Shown here piece after piece: positions 4,172 through 43,877 of a DNA stretch of 64,000 bases. The stretch's first letter is position 1, and every line of letters begins with the position of its first letter. A model generated the notes under the pieces. The model was not told where the DNA came from. It made no database searches and saw only the letters and a list, made by a program, of their open reading frames with translations. The translations under genes and the position numbers were made by a program. This DNA is from Paracoccus litorisediminis (GTDB lineage Bacteria; Pseudomonadota; Alphaproteobacteria; Rhodobacterales; Rhodobacteraceae), in NCBI RefSeq assembly GCF_009711205.1, contig NZ_WMIG01000001.1:558001-622000 (forward strand). The letters run 5' to 3'.

Positions 4172-5314
4172 ATGCCCCAGACCATTCTTGCCAATGCCCG
4201 CCTGATCCTGCCCGATAATGTCCTGACCGGATCACTGGTCATCGAGGACGGGGTGATCGCCGATATCCGCGCCGGTGCGGATGTCCCCCAGGGCGCGCTG
4301 GACATGGCGGGCGACTTCCTTGCCCCCGGCATGGTCGAATTGCATACCGACAATCTGGAACGCCACATGCGCCCGCGCCCCGGCGTGGACTGGCCCCATG
4401 CGGCGGCGATCATCGCCCATGACGCCGAGCTGGCCGGCTGCGGCATCACCACCGTTTTCGACGCCATGCGCGTGGGTTCCGTGGTCAGCGACGGACCGGA
4501 TCAGGACTACGAAAAATACGCGCGAGAACTGGCACATGAGTTGATTGATCTGCGCAACGAGGGCGCGTTGCGGATCAGTCACCTGTTGCATTTGCGGGCT
4601 GAAGTCTGCTCGGAAACCCTGATCGCAGAGCTGGACGAGTTCGGTCCGGACGACCGCGTCGGCATCATCAGCCTGATGGACCACACCCCCGGCCAGCGGC
4701 AGTTCCGCGACCTGTCGAAACTCGCGCAATATGTGCAGGGCAAGTACAAGCTGGACGATGCCGCGTTCGACGAGCATGTCTCGCGGATGAAGGCGCTGCG
4801 CGACCGCTACGGCGACGCGCATGAGGCGGCGGCGGTCGAGGTCGCCCACCGTCTGGGCGCCGTGCTGGCCAGCCATGACGATACCACCCCGGAACACGTC
4901 GCCCGTTCCGCAGGCTACGGCGTGCGACTGGCCGAGTTTCCGACCACGCCCGAGGCGGCCTCGGCCTGCCACGATCACGGGATCATGGTGATGATGGGCG
5001 CGCCGAACCTGATCCGGGGCGGCTCGCATTCGGGCAATGTCTCGGCCGCCGAACTGGCCCGCGCGGGGCATCTGGATATTCTGTCGTCGGATTACGTGCC
5101 CGCCGGGCTGATCGGCGGCGCAATGATCTTGGCCGATCTGTGGAACGACCTGCCCCGCGCCATCGCCACCGTCACCGCCAATCCGGCCACTGCCGCCGGA
5201 CTGGCGGATCGCGGAAGGCTGCAGCCGGGCCTGCGCGCCGACCTGATGCGCTTCCGCATGGTCGCCGACCGGCCTGTCATACGTGAAACATGGGTGCGCG
5301 GCAGCCGCGTCTGA
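4172..5314 (+). CDS. phnM: Alpha-D-ribose 1-methylphosphonate 5-triphosphate diphosphatase
   Basis: Amidohydrolase-superfamily enzyme of the C-P lyase pathway that releases pyrophosphate from the ribose triphosphate methylphosphonate intermediate. The 380-residue product carries the PhnM signature around residues 57-70, HTDNLERHMRPRPG, the later ASHDDTT and the SSDYVPAGL segment with the conserved Asp. All expected metal ligands appear present. No other C-P lyase genes (phnG to phnL) adjoin it; the neighbours are cobB upstream and a terminator downstream. A second, degenerate PhnM-like gene lies at 40585-41697 in this same window. Identity is secure, while its role in this isolated setting is inferred. 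Confidence 0.93.
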   Translation: MPQTILANARLILPDNVLTGSLVIEDGVIADIRAGADVPQGALDMAGDFLAPGMVELHTDNLERHMRPRPGVDWPHAAAIIAHDAELAGCGITTVFDAMRVGSVVSDGPDQDYEKYARELAHELIDLRNEGALRISHLLHLRAEVCSETLIAELDEFGPDDRVGIISLMDHTPGQRQFRDLSKLAQYVQGKYKLDDAAFDEHVSRMKALRDRYGDAHEAAAVEVAHRLGAVLASHDDTTPEHVARSAGYGVRLAEFPTTPEAASACHDHGIMVMMGAPNLIRGGSHSGNVSAAELARAGHLDILSSDYVPAGLIGGAMILADLWNDLPRAIATVTANPATAAGLADRGRLQPGLRADLMRFRMVADRPVIRETWVRGSRV

Positions 5315-38658: not shown

Positions 38659-39738
38659 TCATTCGGTCCGGGCTTCGCCTTCGGCCTCGAAGCGGTCGGG
38701 ATGGCGGCGGCGCCAGGACAGCGAGTTCACGAAGGCCACCGCGATGAAGCAGGCCCCCAGCAGCCCGGTGATCAGTTCCGGGATCTGGCGCAGGGTCTGG
38801 ACGAACATGATGATCGACAGCACAAAGATCGACCAGAAGGCCCCGTGTTCAAGGTAGCGGAACTGGGCCAGCGTGCCCTTTTCGACCAGCATCACCGTCA
38901 TCGAGCGCACATACATCGCCCCGATCCCCAGACCGATGGCGATCAGGAACAGGTTCTGGGTCAGGGCAAAGGCCCCTATCACCCCGTCGAAGCTGAATGA
39001 GGCATCGAGCACTTCAAGATAGAGGAAGGCGCCGAAGCCGCCGCGCGCCATGTCGCCCGTGCCGATCGAGCCGCCGCCCCATCGGTCAAGGATATGCCCC
39101 AGCGCATCGACCAGCAGATAGGTGATGACGCCCCAGATGGCCGCGATGACGAAGGTATGTTCCTTCTCCGCCGGCAGGAAATGCAAGACCACCATCATCG
39201 AGACGAGGACGAGGCCGACTTCCATGCCGCGGATCTCACCGATCTTGCGCAGGCCGGCTTCCACCCCGGCGATCCAGTCCACATCCTTGCTTTGGTCAAA
39301 GAAGTAGTTCAGCGCCACCAGCATCAGGAAGGCACCGCCGAAGCCCGCGATGGGCAGATGCGCCTCGTGGATGATGCGGGCATATTCGGCGGGCTGGGTG
39401 GCGGCAAGGCGCACCGCCTCGAACGGGTTCAGCCGGGCGGCGATGACCACGACCAGCAGCGGAAAGATCACCCGCATCCCGAAGACCGCGATGATGATGC
39501 CCCAGGTCAGGAACCGGCGCTGCCATTTCGGCGTCATCTGCTTGAGCTTGTTGGCGTTGACGATCGCATTGTCGAAGCTGAGCGAGATTTCCAGCACCGC
39601 CAGCACCGCCGCGATCAGGAAGAAGGACAGCGTTCCCGTCCCGGTGCCCGAATATTGCCAGCCGATCAATGCAGCAAGCGCCAGTCCGATGGCCGTCACG
39701 ACGAAGGGCCAGGTCATGTAGCGGATCGTGGATTTCAT
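38659..39738 (-). CDS. DUF475 (TerC-like) membrane protein
   Basis: A 359-residue inner-membrane protein with about nine hydrophobic segments. Two acidic membrane motifs, SFDNAIVNANKLKQM near residue 55 and SFDGVIGAFALTQN near 245, match the TerC/DUF475 family, whose members are linked to metal export or tellurite resistance. Mn2+ or other divalent metal efflux is an inference from family only. No yybP-ykoY riboswitch is recognisable in the short leader. It is divergent from the DUF1045 gene. Confidence 0.88.
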   Translation of the reverse strand: MKSTIRYMTWPFVVTAIGLALAALIGWQYSGTGTGTLSFFLIAAVLAVLEISLSFDNAIVNANKLKQMTPKWQRRFLTWGIIIAVFGMRVIFPLLVVVIAARLNPFEAVRLAATQPAEYARIIHEAHLPIAGFGGAFLMLVALNYFFDQSKDVDWIAGVEAGLRKIGEIRGMEVGLVLVSMMVVLHFLPAEKEHTFVIAAIWGVITYLLVDALGHILDRWGGGSIGTGDMARGGFGAFLYLEVLDASFSFDGVIGAFALTQNLFLIAIGLGIGAMYVRSMTVMLVEKGTLAQFRYLEHGAFWSIFVLSIIMFVQTLRQIPELITGLLGACFIAVAFVNSLSWRRRHPDRFEAEGEARTE

Positions 39739-39837: not shown

Positions 39838-40518
39838 ATGAGCCATGCCCGATTTGCGATCTATCACCTGCCCGACGGCCCCCTGGCCGACATGGGAAGC
39901 GCCTGGCTGGGCTGGGACGCGCGTCAGGGGATGGCACCGCCGCGGCCCGATGTCGCCGAAGTGGCGGGTGATGCCGGGGCGCTGACCTCGGTTCCAATGC
40001 GCTATGGATTTCACGCGACGCTGAAGGCTCCGTTCCGCCTGCGCGAAGGCCATGACGTGCAAGATCTGGCCCGGCGCACCGCGCTGGTCTGCGATCAGCT
40101 TGCGCCCTTTGCGCTGGAACTGGAGCTGCGCTGCGACTGGGGCTTCGTGATGCTGCGCCCGTGCGTCCAGACCCCCGCCCTGCAGGCGCTGGAGCAGGCG
40201 CTGGTCACCCGCCTGGACGATCTGCGCGCGCCCCTTACCCCGGCGGAATATGCCCGCAGGCAGCCCGAACTGCTGCCGGAACGCGCCCGCGCGCATCTGG
40301 ACCATTGGGGATATCCCTTTGTTCTGGACCAGTTCAACTACCACCTGACCCTGTCGAACGGCCTGCCCAAACCCGAGGCCGAGGCGCTGCGGGACGCGCT
40401 GGCCCCGACCTTTGCGCCGCTGATCGCACAGCCGATGCAGGTGCATTCGGTGGCGCTGCTGGCCGAGGAAGGCGACGGCCGGATGCGCATGATCCGCGAG
40501 TTTCCGCTGCGCGGCTAG
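39838..40518 (+). CDS. DUF1045 phosphonate-operon protein, 2H phosphoesterase-like
   Basis: A 226-residue cytoplasmic protein of the family annotated as a putative phosphonate metabolism protein. It has the two H-x-T motifs of the 2H phosphoesterase superfamily: FHATLK (His59, Thr61) and YHLTLS near residue 168, about 105 residues apart. Family members sit in C-P lyase clusters and may act on ribose cyclic phosphate, the job of PhnP elsewhere; that role is inference here. CAGGAAA precedes the ATG. The PhnM-like gene follows 66 bases later on the same strand. Confidence 0.85.
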   Translation: MSHARFAIYHLPDGPLADMGSAWLGWDARQGMAPPRPDVAEVAGDAGALTSVPMRYGFHATLKAPFRLREGHDVQDLARRTALVCDQLAPFALELELRCDWGFVMLRPCVQTPALQALEQALVTRLDDLRAPLTPAEYARRQPELLPERARAHLDHWGYPFVLDQFNYHLTLSNGLPKPEAEALRDALAPTFAPLIAQPMQVHSVALLAEEGDGRMRMIREFPLRG

Positions 40519-40584
40519 CCGCATGTCACGCGGATTTCACAACCAAAGGGCATGATTTGCAGGACCAACTGGCCGGGACATGCC

Positions 40585-41697
40585 ATGCCGCTTCTGCCTT
40601 CTCTACGCCTTGTCGGTGCGACCATCCTGCGCGATGGCGAGTTGCGGCAGCGCTCGGTCGCGATCGCGCGGGGCAGGATCAGCAAAGGTCCGTTGCCGGC
40701 GGTCGATCTGGATGGCTACCTGATCCTGCCGGGGATCATCGACCTGCTTTTGCGCCCGCAGCCCGTCCGGGCCGAGACAGCCCGCCGCGCCGTCAGCGCG
40801 GGCATCACCACCGCATGGCTAACCCCCGGCTGGTCCTGGCAGGCCGGGCATGACGCGCCGTGGCGGGATCAGGCGACACTGCGCGACGCCATCGGGCCGG
40901 GACTGCCCGACCTGCATCCGGCGATCAGCATCGAAAGCCACCGCACCGACAGCACCGCGGAACTGATCGAGCTGTGCCGGACCCTGAAGGTGGAGCTGGC
41001 CTGGTTCGAAAGCAGCTTTGCCCGGTTGCAGGACCTGCGCCAGCACGACACCCCCGCCTATGCGCATGAGGCACTGCGGCTGGGCATGGACCATGCCGAT
41101 CTGTCGCGGATGCTGGACGATGCCGCCGGGCGGCGGCGCGAGGTGCCGCGCCACCTGTGCCGGTTGGCCGAGGCCTTTGACGACATGGCCCTGCGCTATG
41201 GCAGCGTCGGCGATACCGGCGGCGCCATGCGAGAGACCCATTCCATGATCGGGGCTGGGCTGGCCGCCTGCCCCGCCGCCCATTCCGCCGCCGCCGCCGC
41301 CCGCGCCATGGGCGATCCGGTGCTGCTTTCCGCCGCCGATGAGGATCGGTTGCGCGACCTGCTGCGCGGGGGGTTGGGCGATGTGATCGTCTCGGACGGC
41401 GCACCCGACCGTCTGGTGCCCCTGGCCCTGTCGCTGGCCGGGCCGGATCTGGCCGAGTTGCCGCGCATCTGGGCCATGCTCTCCTCGCGTCCCGCCGAGA
41501 TCATGCGGCTGGCCGACCGTGGGCGGCTGGATCACGGTTGCCGCGCGGATGTCACCGTGGTCTCGCGCCGATCATGCCGGGTCGAGGCGACGATCTGCGC
41601 CGGTCGCCTTGCCTATCTCTCGGGCGAGGCAAGGCAACGCTTTGCCGATGCCGGGATCGTGCCGGGCAGCGAAGGCCCGGCCATCGCCGCCGAATAG
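40585..41697 (+). CDS. Divergent PhnM-like amidohydrolase lacking the metal-ligand motif
   Basis: A 370-residue protein that aligns over its whole length with PhnM (compare 4172-5314): the opening ATILRDGELRQRSVAI, the DGYLILPGIIDL strand, SAGITTAWLT, and the closing PAEIMRLADRGRLDHGCRAD. Yet where PhnM has HTDNLERHMRPRPG it reads LLLRPQPV, and where PhnM has ASHDDTT it reads GSVGDTGG; an Asp remains in IVSDGAPD. So most metal ligands are gone and ordinary diphosphatase activity is unlikely. The frame is intact with normal codon use, which argues against a pseudogene. An in-frame ATG at 40552 is an alternative start. Confidence 0.75.
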   Translation: MPLLPSLRLVGATILRDGELRQRSVAIARGRISKGPLPAVDLDGYLILPGIIDLLLRPQPVRAETARRAVSAGITTAWLTPGWSWQAGHDAPWRDQATLRDAIGPGLPDLHPAISIESHRTDSTAELIELCRTLKVELAWFESSFARLQDLRQHDTPAYAHEALRLGMDHADLSRMLDDAAGRRREVPRHLCRLAEAFDDMALRYGSVGDTGGAMRETHSMIGAGLAACPAAHSAAAAARAMGDPVLLSAADEDRLRDLLRGGLGDVIVSDGAPDRLVPLALSLAGPDLAELPRIWAMLSSRPAEIMRLADRGRLDHGCRADVTVVSRRSCRVEATICAGRLAYLSGEARQRFADAGIVPGSEGPAIAAE

Positions 41698-41700
41698 GCG

Positions 41701-42927
41701 CTAGGCCCGGACCAGCACCGCCAGATCGGCGACATTGGTGCCGGTCGCCCCGGTGACCACCAGCGCATCACCCGCCAGCAATGCGGGGGTCGAATCGTTG
41801 CGGGAAAGCGCTGCGACCGGATCGACATCCGCCGTGCGGACCTTTGCCACCGTATCCGGTCCAACCAGCCCGCCCGCTGCCTCACCCGGCCCGTCGCGCC
41901 CGTCGCTGCCAACCGAGGCAAAGGCCCAGTCGAAGGGCACGGGATCGCCCTCGGCCAGCAGGGCAAGGCGCAGGGCCAGTTCCTGATTGCGCCCGCCCAT
42001 GCCATCACCGACCAGCCGCACCGTGGTTTCACCACCGAAGGCCAGCGCCTGACCGGGGGCAAGGTCGCGGGCCAGTGCCCAGATGGCTTGCGCGCAATCC
42101 TGCACGTCGCCTTCAAGCGGAAACGCTGCCGTATCGGCCCCCGCCGTCACCATCGCCGCCACGGAAATCGCATTCGACCCGACGAGGATATTGCGCGCCT
42201 GCGGCAACGGGCGCGGATCGTCCGGGCGCGACAAGGCGGCACGGGCGGGCTCGGGCATCCGGTCCCAGATGCCCAGCCGCTTGGCCAGCGCCACCGCATC
42301 GGCCCGCGTGCCGACCGGCGCGACCGTCGGACCCGAGGCGATCACCCGCAGGTCATCCCCCGGCACATCCGACAGGATCAGCGCCACCACTGGTGCCGCC
42401 GACAGCCGCAGCCAGCCGCCGCCCTTCAGCCGTGACAGGCCCTGACGGATCAGGTTCACCTGCGCAATATCCGCGCCCGAGGCCAGCAGCAGCGCATTGA
42501 CCGCCTGCTTGTCAGCCAAGGTCATCCCCTCAGCGGGCGCGGGCAGCATGGCCGAGCCACCACCCGAGATCAGCGCCAGAACCCGATCGTTCGGACCCAC
42601 TGACTGCAACAACCGCTCGACCTCATCGGCGGCGGCAGCGCCTTGGGCATCGGGCTGGGGATGGCCTGCCCGCATGACCCGTGCGCCCGGCAGGGCGGCG
42701 TCATTGCCCGCATTGGTGACGACCAGCGCATCGCCCCCCGGCAGCGCCTGCAAGGCCGCCTTGGCCATTGCGCGCGCAGCCTTGCCCAAGGCGATGATCT
42801 GCCAGCGCCCGCCCTGCTCCGGCGGATTGGCCAGCACCTCGGCCATGCCGCGGCGCACGGCCTCGGCGGGATCGGCGGCGTTGATCCCCGCTTGGATCAG
42901 TGCCATGGCCCGGTCAGCGGGTCGCAT
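41701..42927 (-). CDS. Glycerate 2-kinase (MOFRL family, GckA/TtuD type)
   Basis: Phosphorylates D-glycerate to 2-phosphoglycerate, draining glyoxylate or hydroxypyruvate carbon into glycolysis. The 408-residue protein has the DUF4147 N-domain (IIALGKAARAMAKAAL, ISGGGSAMLPAP, RQGLSRLKGGG) and the C-terminal MOFRL domain (FGGETTVRLVGDGMGGRNQELAL). Family members are sometimes named hydroxypyruvate reductase TtuD; kinase function is the better-supported reading. Its start overlaps the dehydrogenase stop as TGATG, making it the last gene of the operon. Confidence 0.9.
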   Translation of the reverse strand: MRPADRAMALIQAGINAADPAEAVRRGMAEVLANPPEQGGRWQIIALGKAARAMAKAALQALPGGDALVVTNAGNDAALPGARVMRAGHPQPDAQGAAAADEVERLLQSVGPNDRVLALISGGGSAMLPAPAEGMTLADKQAVNALLLASGADIAQVNLIRQGLSRLKGGGWLRLSAAPVVALILSDVPGDDLRVIASGPTVAPVGTRADAVALAKRLGIWDRMPEPARAALSRPDDPRPLPQARNILVGSNAISVAAMVTAGADTAAFPLEGDVQDCAQAIWALARDLAPGQALAFGGETTVRLVGDGMGGRNQELALRLALLAEGDPVPFDWAFASVGSDGRDGPGEAAGGLVGPDTVAKVRTADVDPVAALSRNDSTPALLAGDALVVTGATGTNVADLAVLVRA

Positions 42928-43877
42928 CAGCCGACCCGGTCGGGCAAGGGCCGCCCCTCGGCATGGGCGACCAGATTGTTCAGCGCCCGCATGGCCATGG
43001 CGGTGCGCACTTCCTCGGCGGCAGTGCCCAGATGCGGCAGCAGGGTCACGTTCTCCATCGCGCAAAGCTCGGGCGAGACCTGCGGTTCGCGCTCATAGAC
43101 GTCCAGACCCGCGCCCGCGATGGTGCCGCGCTGAAGCGCAGCAACCAGTGCCGCCTCATCGACGACATCGCCGCGCGCGATATTGATCAGGGTCGCGCCC
43201 GGCCCCATCAGCGCCAGTTCCCGCGCCCCGATCAGGTGGCGGGTGCCCGCCCCGCCCGGCACGGCGATCACCACGAAATCGCTGCCGCGCAGCAGCTCGT
43301 CCAGCCCCTCGACCTGCCGGGCCGGAAAATCCAGCGCCGAGACCAGCGAGCGGTTGTGGAACAGCACCTCCATGCCAAAGCCGAAATGGCAGCGCCGGGC
43401 GATGGCCTTGCCGATCCGGCCCATGCCGATGATGCCGACCGTCGCGCCGGTGACATGGCGGCCCAGCAATTGCGTCGGCTGCCAGCCGCGCCATTCGCCC
43501 CGGCGCAGCAGGCGTTCCCCCTCGCCCGCACGCCGCGCGGTCATCAGGATCAGGGTCAGGGCAATATCGGCCGTGGCCTCGGTCACCGCATCGGGGGTGT
43601 TCGACACCGCGATCCCTGCATCCGCCGCCGCGGCCACGTCGATATGATTGTAGCCCGCGCCGAAATTCGCGATCAGCTTGCAGCGCAGGTCCGCACCAAA
43701 GGCCGAGGCCGCAAAGCGGTCGCCCAGGGTCGGCATCACCGCATCGAAATCGCGCATGGCTTGCCCGGCCTCATCCGGGGTCAGCCCCTGTTCGCGGTCA
43801 AGGAACACCACCTCGAAACGCTCGCTCAGCGCGCGTTCCGCCGCATCGGTCATGCGGCGCGTCACCAGAAGCCGCAT
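42927..43877 (-). CDS. D-isomer-specific 2-hydroxyacid dehydrogenase (glyoxylate/hydroxypyruvate reductase type)
   Basis: A 316-residue NAD(P)H enzyme. The Rossmann motif VGIIGMGRIGKAIA, the catalytic Arg in NIARGDVVDE, the Glu in DVYEREP and the His in LLPHLGTA are all present. With glycerate kinase immediately downstream, reduction of hydroxypyruvate or glyoxylate is the likely reaction. It is translationally coupled on both sides (TGATG at each end). The residue after GRIGKAIARRCHF does not show clearly whether NADH or NADPH is preferred. Confidence 0.92.
   Translation of the reverse strand: MRLLVTRRMTDAAERALSERFEVVFLDREQGLTPDEAGQAMRDFDAVMPTLGDRFAASAFGADLRCKLIANFGAGYNHIDVAAAADAGIAVSNTPDAVTEATADIALTLILMTARRAGEGERLLRRGEWRGWQPTQLLGRHVTGATVGIIGMGRIGKAIARRCHFGFGMEVLFHNRSLVSALDFPARQVEGLDELLRGSDFVVIAVPGGAGTRHLIGARELALMGPGATLINIARGDVVDEAALVAALQRGTIAGAGLDVYEREPQVSPELCAMENVTLLPHLGTAAEEVRTAMAMRALNNLVAHAEGRPLPDRVG

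Follow-up and report, generated by a model that had tools for sequence, protein, structure and literature searches.

A probable Pho-regulated PhnM2 pseudoenzyme in Paracoccus, apparently left behind by a collapsed phn cluster

What is a homologue of PhnM kept for once most of its metal site has gone? The gene that raises this question lies in a 64,000-nucleotide stretch of Paracoccus litorisediminis DNA (G000:C1:558001-622000; genome size 5.37 Mb), which was analysed as a whole and is called the window here (Table 1). An earlier note on this DNA had described the gene as an intact paralogue of PhnM without the metal-binding motif. Its observation, an intact PhnM homologue that has lost this motif, is confirmed. 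The open reading frame (40552-41697) has two candidate ATG starts, and the orthologues favour the one at 40585. The frame is open in all 14 full-length Paracoccus orthologues, so the claim of an intact frame stands. The nearest orthologue found in a scan of genome contigs, from Paracoccus aestuariivivens (L033), is 79% identical.

Table 1. Positions of the degenerate PhnM2 gene and of the other features discussed, in window coordinates
Feature	Position	Strand	Remarks
Canonical PhnM (PhnM1)	4172..5314	+	all metal motifs; ~35 kb from DUF1045
DUF475/TerC-type membrane protein	38659..39738	-	frequent locus flank
DUF1045 2H phosphoesterase	39838..40518	+	both HxTL motifs; member of presumed relic cluster
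PHO-box-like direct repeat ATGTCAC-gcgg-ATTTCAC	40523..40540	+	11-bp period; 44 bp before ATG
Degenerate PhnM2 (pseudoenzyme) gene, 370 aa	40585..41697	+	open frame; orthologue-supported start; 3/4 metal ligands lost
Glycerate 2-kinase-like (DUF4147/MOFRL)	41701..43065	-	convergent; frequent locus flank

With the window protein, no Pfam model scored above its cut-off. The NCBIfam models that matched were of the PhnM type, and among the PhnM models listed none reached its cut-off; the best was NF011987 with 126.9 bits (cut-off 253), and TIGR02318 gave 71 bits (cut-off 390). On sequence, the closest relatives of the protein are not the PhnM at 4172-5314 but the second PhnM proteins of Rhodobacteraceae C-P lyase clusters (NF011987), hereafter PhnM2. 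This bears on two further claims of the earlier note. The alignment with PhnM had been called end to end, which holds only loosely. With the PhnM of the window, BLASTP gave a single significant segment (111 columns, 37%), and a profile of the 14 orthologues aligned over residues 36-325 of 370 (98% probability, E 2e-14). With the PhnM2 relatives, in contrast, the alignment is near full-length at 43-46% identity. The protein is a PhnM homologue, yet to call it a paralogue of the PhnM at 4172 is imprecise, since it belongs to a separate subfamily. AlphaFold2, run on the window protein, L033 and PhnM1, gave a pLDDT of 40 and a pTM of 0.26.

With L016 as query, 345 genomes of the family were searched. 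The best 75 matches, down to about 2e-54, were examined and five weaker ones were added by choice (G428, the second copy of G333, G402, G149 and G362), which gave 80 rows from other genera; a partial second match of G309 (C61) was left out. Rows with all four metal ligands present were called intact and all others degenerate. Two PhnM1 outgroup rows split from all 94 PhnM2 rows (100/100), and the Paracoccus clade falls among the latter. When the ligand-motif columns are left out, the tree unites the 14 Paracoccus rows in a single clade (100/94), which is nested among 25 degenerate rows that group together (89/95, not starred). The three longest terminal branches all belong to degenerate rows (L112, L103 and L092).

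Which ligands have been lost can be read from the alignment with PhnM1 and the 80 relatives. By the amidohydrolase superfamily, we take the metal ligands of PhnM to be the His of HxD, the His of DH, the His of SHDD and the Asp of SDY. At these positions the window protein has L, S, V and D: the three His are gone and the Asp is kept. Much of the pocket has disappeared as well. HTDNLERH has shrunk to one Leu followed by a 7-column gap, the His of DHTPGQ has become Ser, SHDD reads SVGD, and the Asp of SSDY survives as SDG. The replacement of the HTDNLERH and SHDD motifs was thus correctly described. A takeover of the metal sites by new residues is not supported: the ligand positions drift even within Paracoccus (L-SVGD, MERLDR, FEMHGG, HDVHGA). 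Altogether 60 of the 94 PhnM2-type rows are intact, of which six make up a subgroup farther off; the other 34 are degenerate. The latter include all 14 Paracoccus rows and 20 of the 80 relatives examined from other genera; 19 of these 20 lie away from phnG-J. One row classed as intact, L046 (G244), is without the ERH stretch.

In 54 intact PhnM2 proteins, 81 columns are invariant at 98% or more. Of these columns, 40 are retained by 13 or 14 of the 14 Paracoccus proteins, and 22 have gone from 12 or more. Among those lost are the metal ligands and a G-P-N-R-G-S-G loop; those kept are mostly glycine, alanine, proline and framework residues, plus the C-terminal AA. Both this AA tail and the DRG..RAD framework are present in 14/14. 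An AA(E/Q) tail is kept in the intact and most degenerate PhnM2 proteins and is absent from the PhnM1 of the window. Polar residues invariant in the 14 orthologues are D53, D109, H190, C192, S207, D210, R216, E217, D311, R312, D322 and E334. R21, Q22 and C229 are the main residues that Paracoccus has fixed and intact PhnM2 seldom shows; C229 occurs in 13 of the 14, where intact PhnM2 has a Phe (98% conserved). The window protein is probably a catalytically dead PhnM2.

The surroundings of the gene point to where it came from. Intact PhnM2 genes mostly lie directly after phnF and divergent from phnGHIJKL. The full order, seen in L141 and L143, is phnM1< DUF1045> phnN< phnL< corA< phnK..phnG< phnF> PhnM2>. 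The Paracoccus loci read DUF475< [phnM1<] DUF1045> [corA<] PhnM2> GlyK<, where phnM1 remains in two loci (L116 and L117, in which it adjoins DUF1045) and corA in seven; no locus has all four of phnM1, DUF1045, corA and PhnM2. Order and orientation are those of the L141/L143 cluster, minus phnN, phnL, phnK-G and phnF, and therefore the collapse of an ancestral phn cluster would be the simplest account of the Paracoccus locus. A CorA-type metal transporter gene lies between phnK and phnL at L141:11167-12102 and L143:3975-4931. Degenerate PhnM2 has a relative of this gene next to it in L068, L089 and L101 as well as in the seven Paracoccus loci; the window locus is without corA, and a 40% relative is found on contig C13.

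Among the rows counted, detachment from the cluster and loss of the metal site mostly coincide: where phnG-J are absent from the stretch read, 33 of 39 rows are degenerate, and where they are present, 1 of 46. This count covers 85 of the 94 rows (six distant rows and three on cut contigs were left out, and L044 was set as attached from its coordinates). Six intact rows have no phnG-J; two of them, L054 and L082, are near phnC and phnD. A sign test of detachment against degeneracy found six independent pairs, on average 2.7 of them pointing the same way and 0.0 the opposite way, which is too few for a decision. By parsimony the metal-site state changes six times, and the starred branches force at least three changes for the intact label. 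However, a single clade of all 34 degenerate rows was not rejected by the AU test (p 0.18), the bootstrap is unsettled and some of the rows are on long branches; for these reasons we dropped the claim of repeated independent loss of the metal site.

Do the genomes that carry a degenerate PhnM2 degrade phosphonates by C-P lyase? Within the window, phnF-L and phnN gave no match, and the PhnM1 at 4172-5314 stands there without C-P lyase genes. The phn operon of the genome is on contig C21 (L124) and is without a PhnM2 match. In this operon PhnN and PhnM are apparently fused in one 556-aa frame (L124:9267-10937), and a PhnM match of G006 is likewise situated in a 600-aa open frame. Another Paracoccus genome, G070, has three PhnJ matches. 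All 54 genomes with an intact PhnM2 have PhnJ, as do 15 of the 20 other-genus genomes in which PhnM2 is degenerate and 108 of 269 others. The difference between the last two (Fisher p 0.004) is not corrected for relatedness, and the 269 may hold weaker relatives and include the genomes of the distant rows L105, L107, L108, L111 and L113. Within Paracoccus, PhnJ is present in 12 of the 16 genomes with the PhnM2 gene vs 45 of the 109 without it (p 0.015). In the PhnJ-lacking genomes examined, PhnM2 is degenerate in five of five from other genera and in three of four from Paracoccus, the copy of the fourth (G121) being split. A degenerate PhnM2 is commoner where C-P lyase exists, which fits a phosphonate-related role; shared history would give the same pattern. 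A role tied to C-P lyase is moreover weakened by the four Paracoccus genomes that carry the gene without PhnJ (G043, G120, G091 and, with its split copy, G121).

A direct repeat upstream of the gene offers a clue to its regulation. The PHO-box consensus, as we presume it, consists of two 7-bp repeats 4 bp apart, and the 7-4-7 score built on it was devised after five Paracoccus upstream regions had been viewed. Each of the 14 Paracoccus copies has such a repeat, 42-59 bp in front of its ATG. The best upstream site scores 18-21 of 22 in 14/14 and at least 20 in 12/14; among 20,000 random 150-bp stretches from Paracoccus loci 0.8% reach at least 18 and 0.36% at least 20. The repeat at 40523-40540 is the sole site of the window, on either strand, that scores at least 20, and a CATGAT 10 bp downstream of it is a possible -10. 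No such site belongs to the DUF1045 gene of the window, where the best score is 15. In the 10 kb around the pst operon of the same genome, the only site of at least 18 lies about 66 bp before the pstS ORF. This operon was found via PstB; the PstS model TIGR00975 had no match in the genome and the PstS family model reached 148 bits (below its cut-off of 206.6), while PstC, PstB and PhoB were above their cut-offs. Before phnG (200-bp windows, 49 rows, 46 genomes), 47 of 49 rows reach 17 and 35 reach 18; in the phn operon of G000 itself the scores before phnG and phnC go no higher than 17. Upstream of PhnM2 elsewhere, a score of at least 18 is found in 5 of the 20 other degenerate and 17 of the 60 intact rows. 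Repeat structure and the pst and phn settings suggest that the repeats may be PhoB sites. In Phaeobacter, phosphate stress raises the levels of PhnI, PhnJ, PhnL, a DUF1045 protein and PhnM, which are given as not detected in a phoB mutant (PMC10132767).

Before PhnM2 in other genera stands a related element with another second half, TGTCAY-N5-CGAYACA; a score of at least 12 of 13 is reached by 27 of the 54 intact and by 10 of the 20 degenerate rows (background 0.16%). In L034-L104 it is often followed, about 9 bp on, by TTATCCAC. Two further patterns were tried and rejected. A symmetric PHO-box pattern with three mismatches gave six matches in the window against 3.4 expected and missed the PhnM2 site, which the 7-4-7 score picked up with its relaxed second half. 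The stricter pattern MTGTCAYNNNNRTKTCAY, with two matches in the genome, was given no weight because it had been written from the window site and fails on the pstS box. Elsewhere in G000, a PHO-box-like repeat (L149:1501-1518; G000:C3:102124) followed by TTAATGAT precedes an unannotated stretch, possibly a small RNA, that ends before an HNH-type gene (type by eye).

Is the gene maintained? The PhnM2 gene is carried by 16 of 125 Paracoccus genomes and absent from 109, hence it is dispensable in the genus. In two of the 16 (G121 and G023) the PhnM2 matches are split. These splits look like sequence errors because DUF1045 is split in both genomes and DUF475 in G023 as well; both copies are counted in the 16 and were left out of the alignments and of the 14. 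Apart from these two, a search for decay in the relatives found no stops in the 14 full-length orthologues. The 34 degenerate rows examined have diverged widely, and each has an open frame of 340-408 aa; this is partly a matter of sampling because broken copies are less likely among full-length matches. In three close pairs dN/dS is 0.21 (G000-G006), 0.24 and 0.24; the neighbours give 0.18 (DUF1045), 0.16 (GlyK) and 0.10 (DUF475) for G000-G006. Four further pairs range from 0.23 to 0.37, and two deeper pairs, with synonymous sites near saturation, reach 0.50 and 0.56.

The constraint is spread unequally along the protein. Pooled over 21 pairs from seven close species (pS 0.45-0.57), pN/pS is 0.22 for residues 1-50, 0.60 for 51-180, 0.27 for 181-299, 0.36 for 300-345 and 0.64 for the tail. 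Conservation in Paracoccus minus that in intact PhnM2 is +0.20 (1-50), -0.18 (51-180), -0.05 (181-299) and +0.08 (300-345). The two 20-residue blocks of residues 1-40 score 0.76 and 0.83 in Paracoccus vs 0.62 and 0.52 in intact PhnM2. In amidohydrolases the N- and C-terminal segments make a small beta-sandwich domain. Selection seems to keep the gene, with the constraint moved away from residues 51-180. The proposal of a maintained pseudoenzyme agrees with the frames open in 14/14, the dN/dS of the three close pairs and the conserved PHO-box-like element, and the pseudoenzyme reading of the gene is well supported.

Taken jointly, we consider it probable (roughly 0.7) that the gene encodes a Pho-regulated PhnM2 pseudoenzyme and is a relic of a collapsed phn cluster. 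The protein would be made under phosphate starvation through PhoB. PhnM converts RPnTP to PRPn and pyrophosphate (PMC10574752); the window protein, in which the metal site for this reaction is missing, would not hydrolyse ribose-1-alkylphosphonate-5-triphosphate. PhnM2 may instead be kept for another, non-catalytic role that residues 1-50 and 181-345 would carry, most likely that of a binding partner that tunes an active enzyme. As partners, PhnM1 and the PhnN-PhnM frame would come first, being the active PhnM proteins of the same cell; the places to look at are R21, Q22, the AA tail that has been retained and the conserved residues 181-240. This specific partner role of the window protein we regard as doubtful. 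Somewhat less doubtful, though tentative, is a wider reading: PhnM2 would have a second, non-catalytic function, and cluster collapse would have produced a class of Pho-regulated PhnM2 pseudoenzymes that modulate the remaining phosphonate or ribose-phosphate enzymes. The same tentative reading extends the erasure of the active site, with protein and TGTCAY-type promoter kept, from Paracoccus to up to 20 other Rhodobacteraceae genera.

The gene could also be in slow decay, its function lost after the phn collapse and the frame persisting by inertia before deletion. Its absence from most Paracoccus genomes, the relaxed residues 51-180 and tail, the drifting ligand positions, the high dN/dS of the deeper pairs (near-saturated at synonymous sites) and the long end branches of L112, L103 and L092 would all be expected then. 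Yet the dN/dS of the three close pairs is like that of the motif-intact neighbour DUF1045, the upstream element is there in 14/14, residues 1-40 are better conserved than in intact PhnM2, and the 34 degenerate rows are open, though broken copies may have escaped the search; decay is thus unlikely in our view. An enzyme with new chemistry, metal-independent or re-sited, would account for the polar residues invariant in the 14 orthologues and for C229 in place of a conserved Phe. However, most of these polar residues are inherited from intact PhnM2, R21, Q22 and C229 make no evident catalytic set, and the old pocket has eroded differently between species, which leaves this idea quite improbable.

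The neighbouring gene suggests a further alternative, namely that the protein is a dedicated non-catalytic subunit of the adjoining DUF1045 2H phosphoesterase. The gene sits after DUF1045, as the earlier note had it, and lies 66 bp from it in the same direction. Of the 13 Paracoccus DUF1045 copies read, 12 have both HxT motifs (G091 the second only, by the pattern used), and DUF1045-type proteins are proposed as PhnP stand-ins (PMC10574752, PMC8235418, PMC3840354). DUF1045 and PhnM2 share the genome in 16 of 16 and the locus in 15 of 16 Paracoccus cases, and 7 of the 20 other-genus degenerate rows have DUF1045 in the stretch read. The pairing holds at the level of the locus and not as adjacency: the two genes are direct neighbours in only 4 of 14 full-length cases, and an oppositely oriented corA stands between them in seven. 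Moreover, in at least five Paracoccus loci (L130-L134, drawn from nine fetched DUF1045 loci without PhnM2) DUF1045 lies beside an unchanged DUF475 flank without PhnM2; a hidden PhnM2 was sought in the gap after DUF1045 of these five, and none was found, a corA-type gene on the other strand being there instead. Since 13 of the 20 other-genus degenerate rows are also without DUF1045 in the stretch read, and the DUF1045 gene of the window lacks a PHO-box-like site, we hold a dedicated subunit to be improbable. A pseudoenzyme that outlived its phn cluster remains our preferred reading.

Beyond the earlier note, the analysis adds the subfamily, the probable origin from a collapsed cluster, the candidate promoter and the pattern across the family. 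Where lineages have lost the active site and kept the protein, they point to a role of PhnM2 other than RPnTP hydrolysis. In practice, the metal motifs of Rhodobacteraceae matches to ribose-methylphosphonate triphosphate diphosphatase models should be checked before such matches are counted as phosphonate degradation capacity. Among the literature matches listed (titles and abstract starts), there is no description of a degenerate PhnM or PhnM2. PMC3840354 notes a second phnM-like gene with an undefined role in the C-P lyase cluster of a marine member of the Rhodobacteraceae, which probably belongs to the same subfamily as PhnM2.

With PhnM, the alpha-D-ribose 1-methylphosphonate 5-triphosphate diphosphatase of the amidohydrolase superfamily, the window protein shares homology over most of its length and the glycine, proline and DRG/RAD framework residues. 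Unlike PhnM, it keeps only one metal ligand of the four and no substrate-side loop, and its gene has no C-P lyase genes beside it. PhnM2 (NF011987, PRK15446.2-3) is nearer, by the tree, by the AA(E) C-terminal tail and by a TGTCAY-type upstream element. Compared with intact PhnM2, however, the active site is erased and the gene lies away from phnF and phnGHIJKL; with NF011987 the protein scores 127 bits (cut-off 253), two intact members tested 377 and 395. A parallel outside this family is offered by regulatory pseudoenzyme paralogues such as the trypanosome AdoMetDC prozyme (PMC5201418). Unlike the prozyme, the window protein belongs to a separate subfamily and is no recent duplicate of the active PhnM. 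Like the prozyme, it is a seemingly catalytically dead relative that stands beside active homologues in the same genome.
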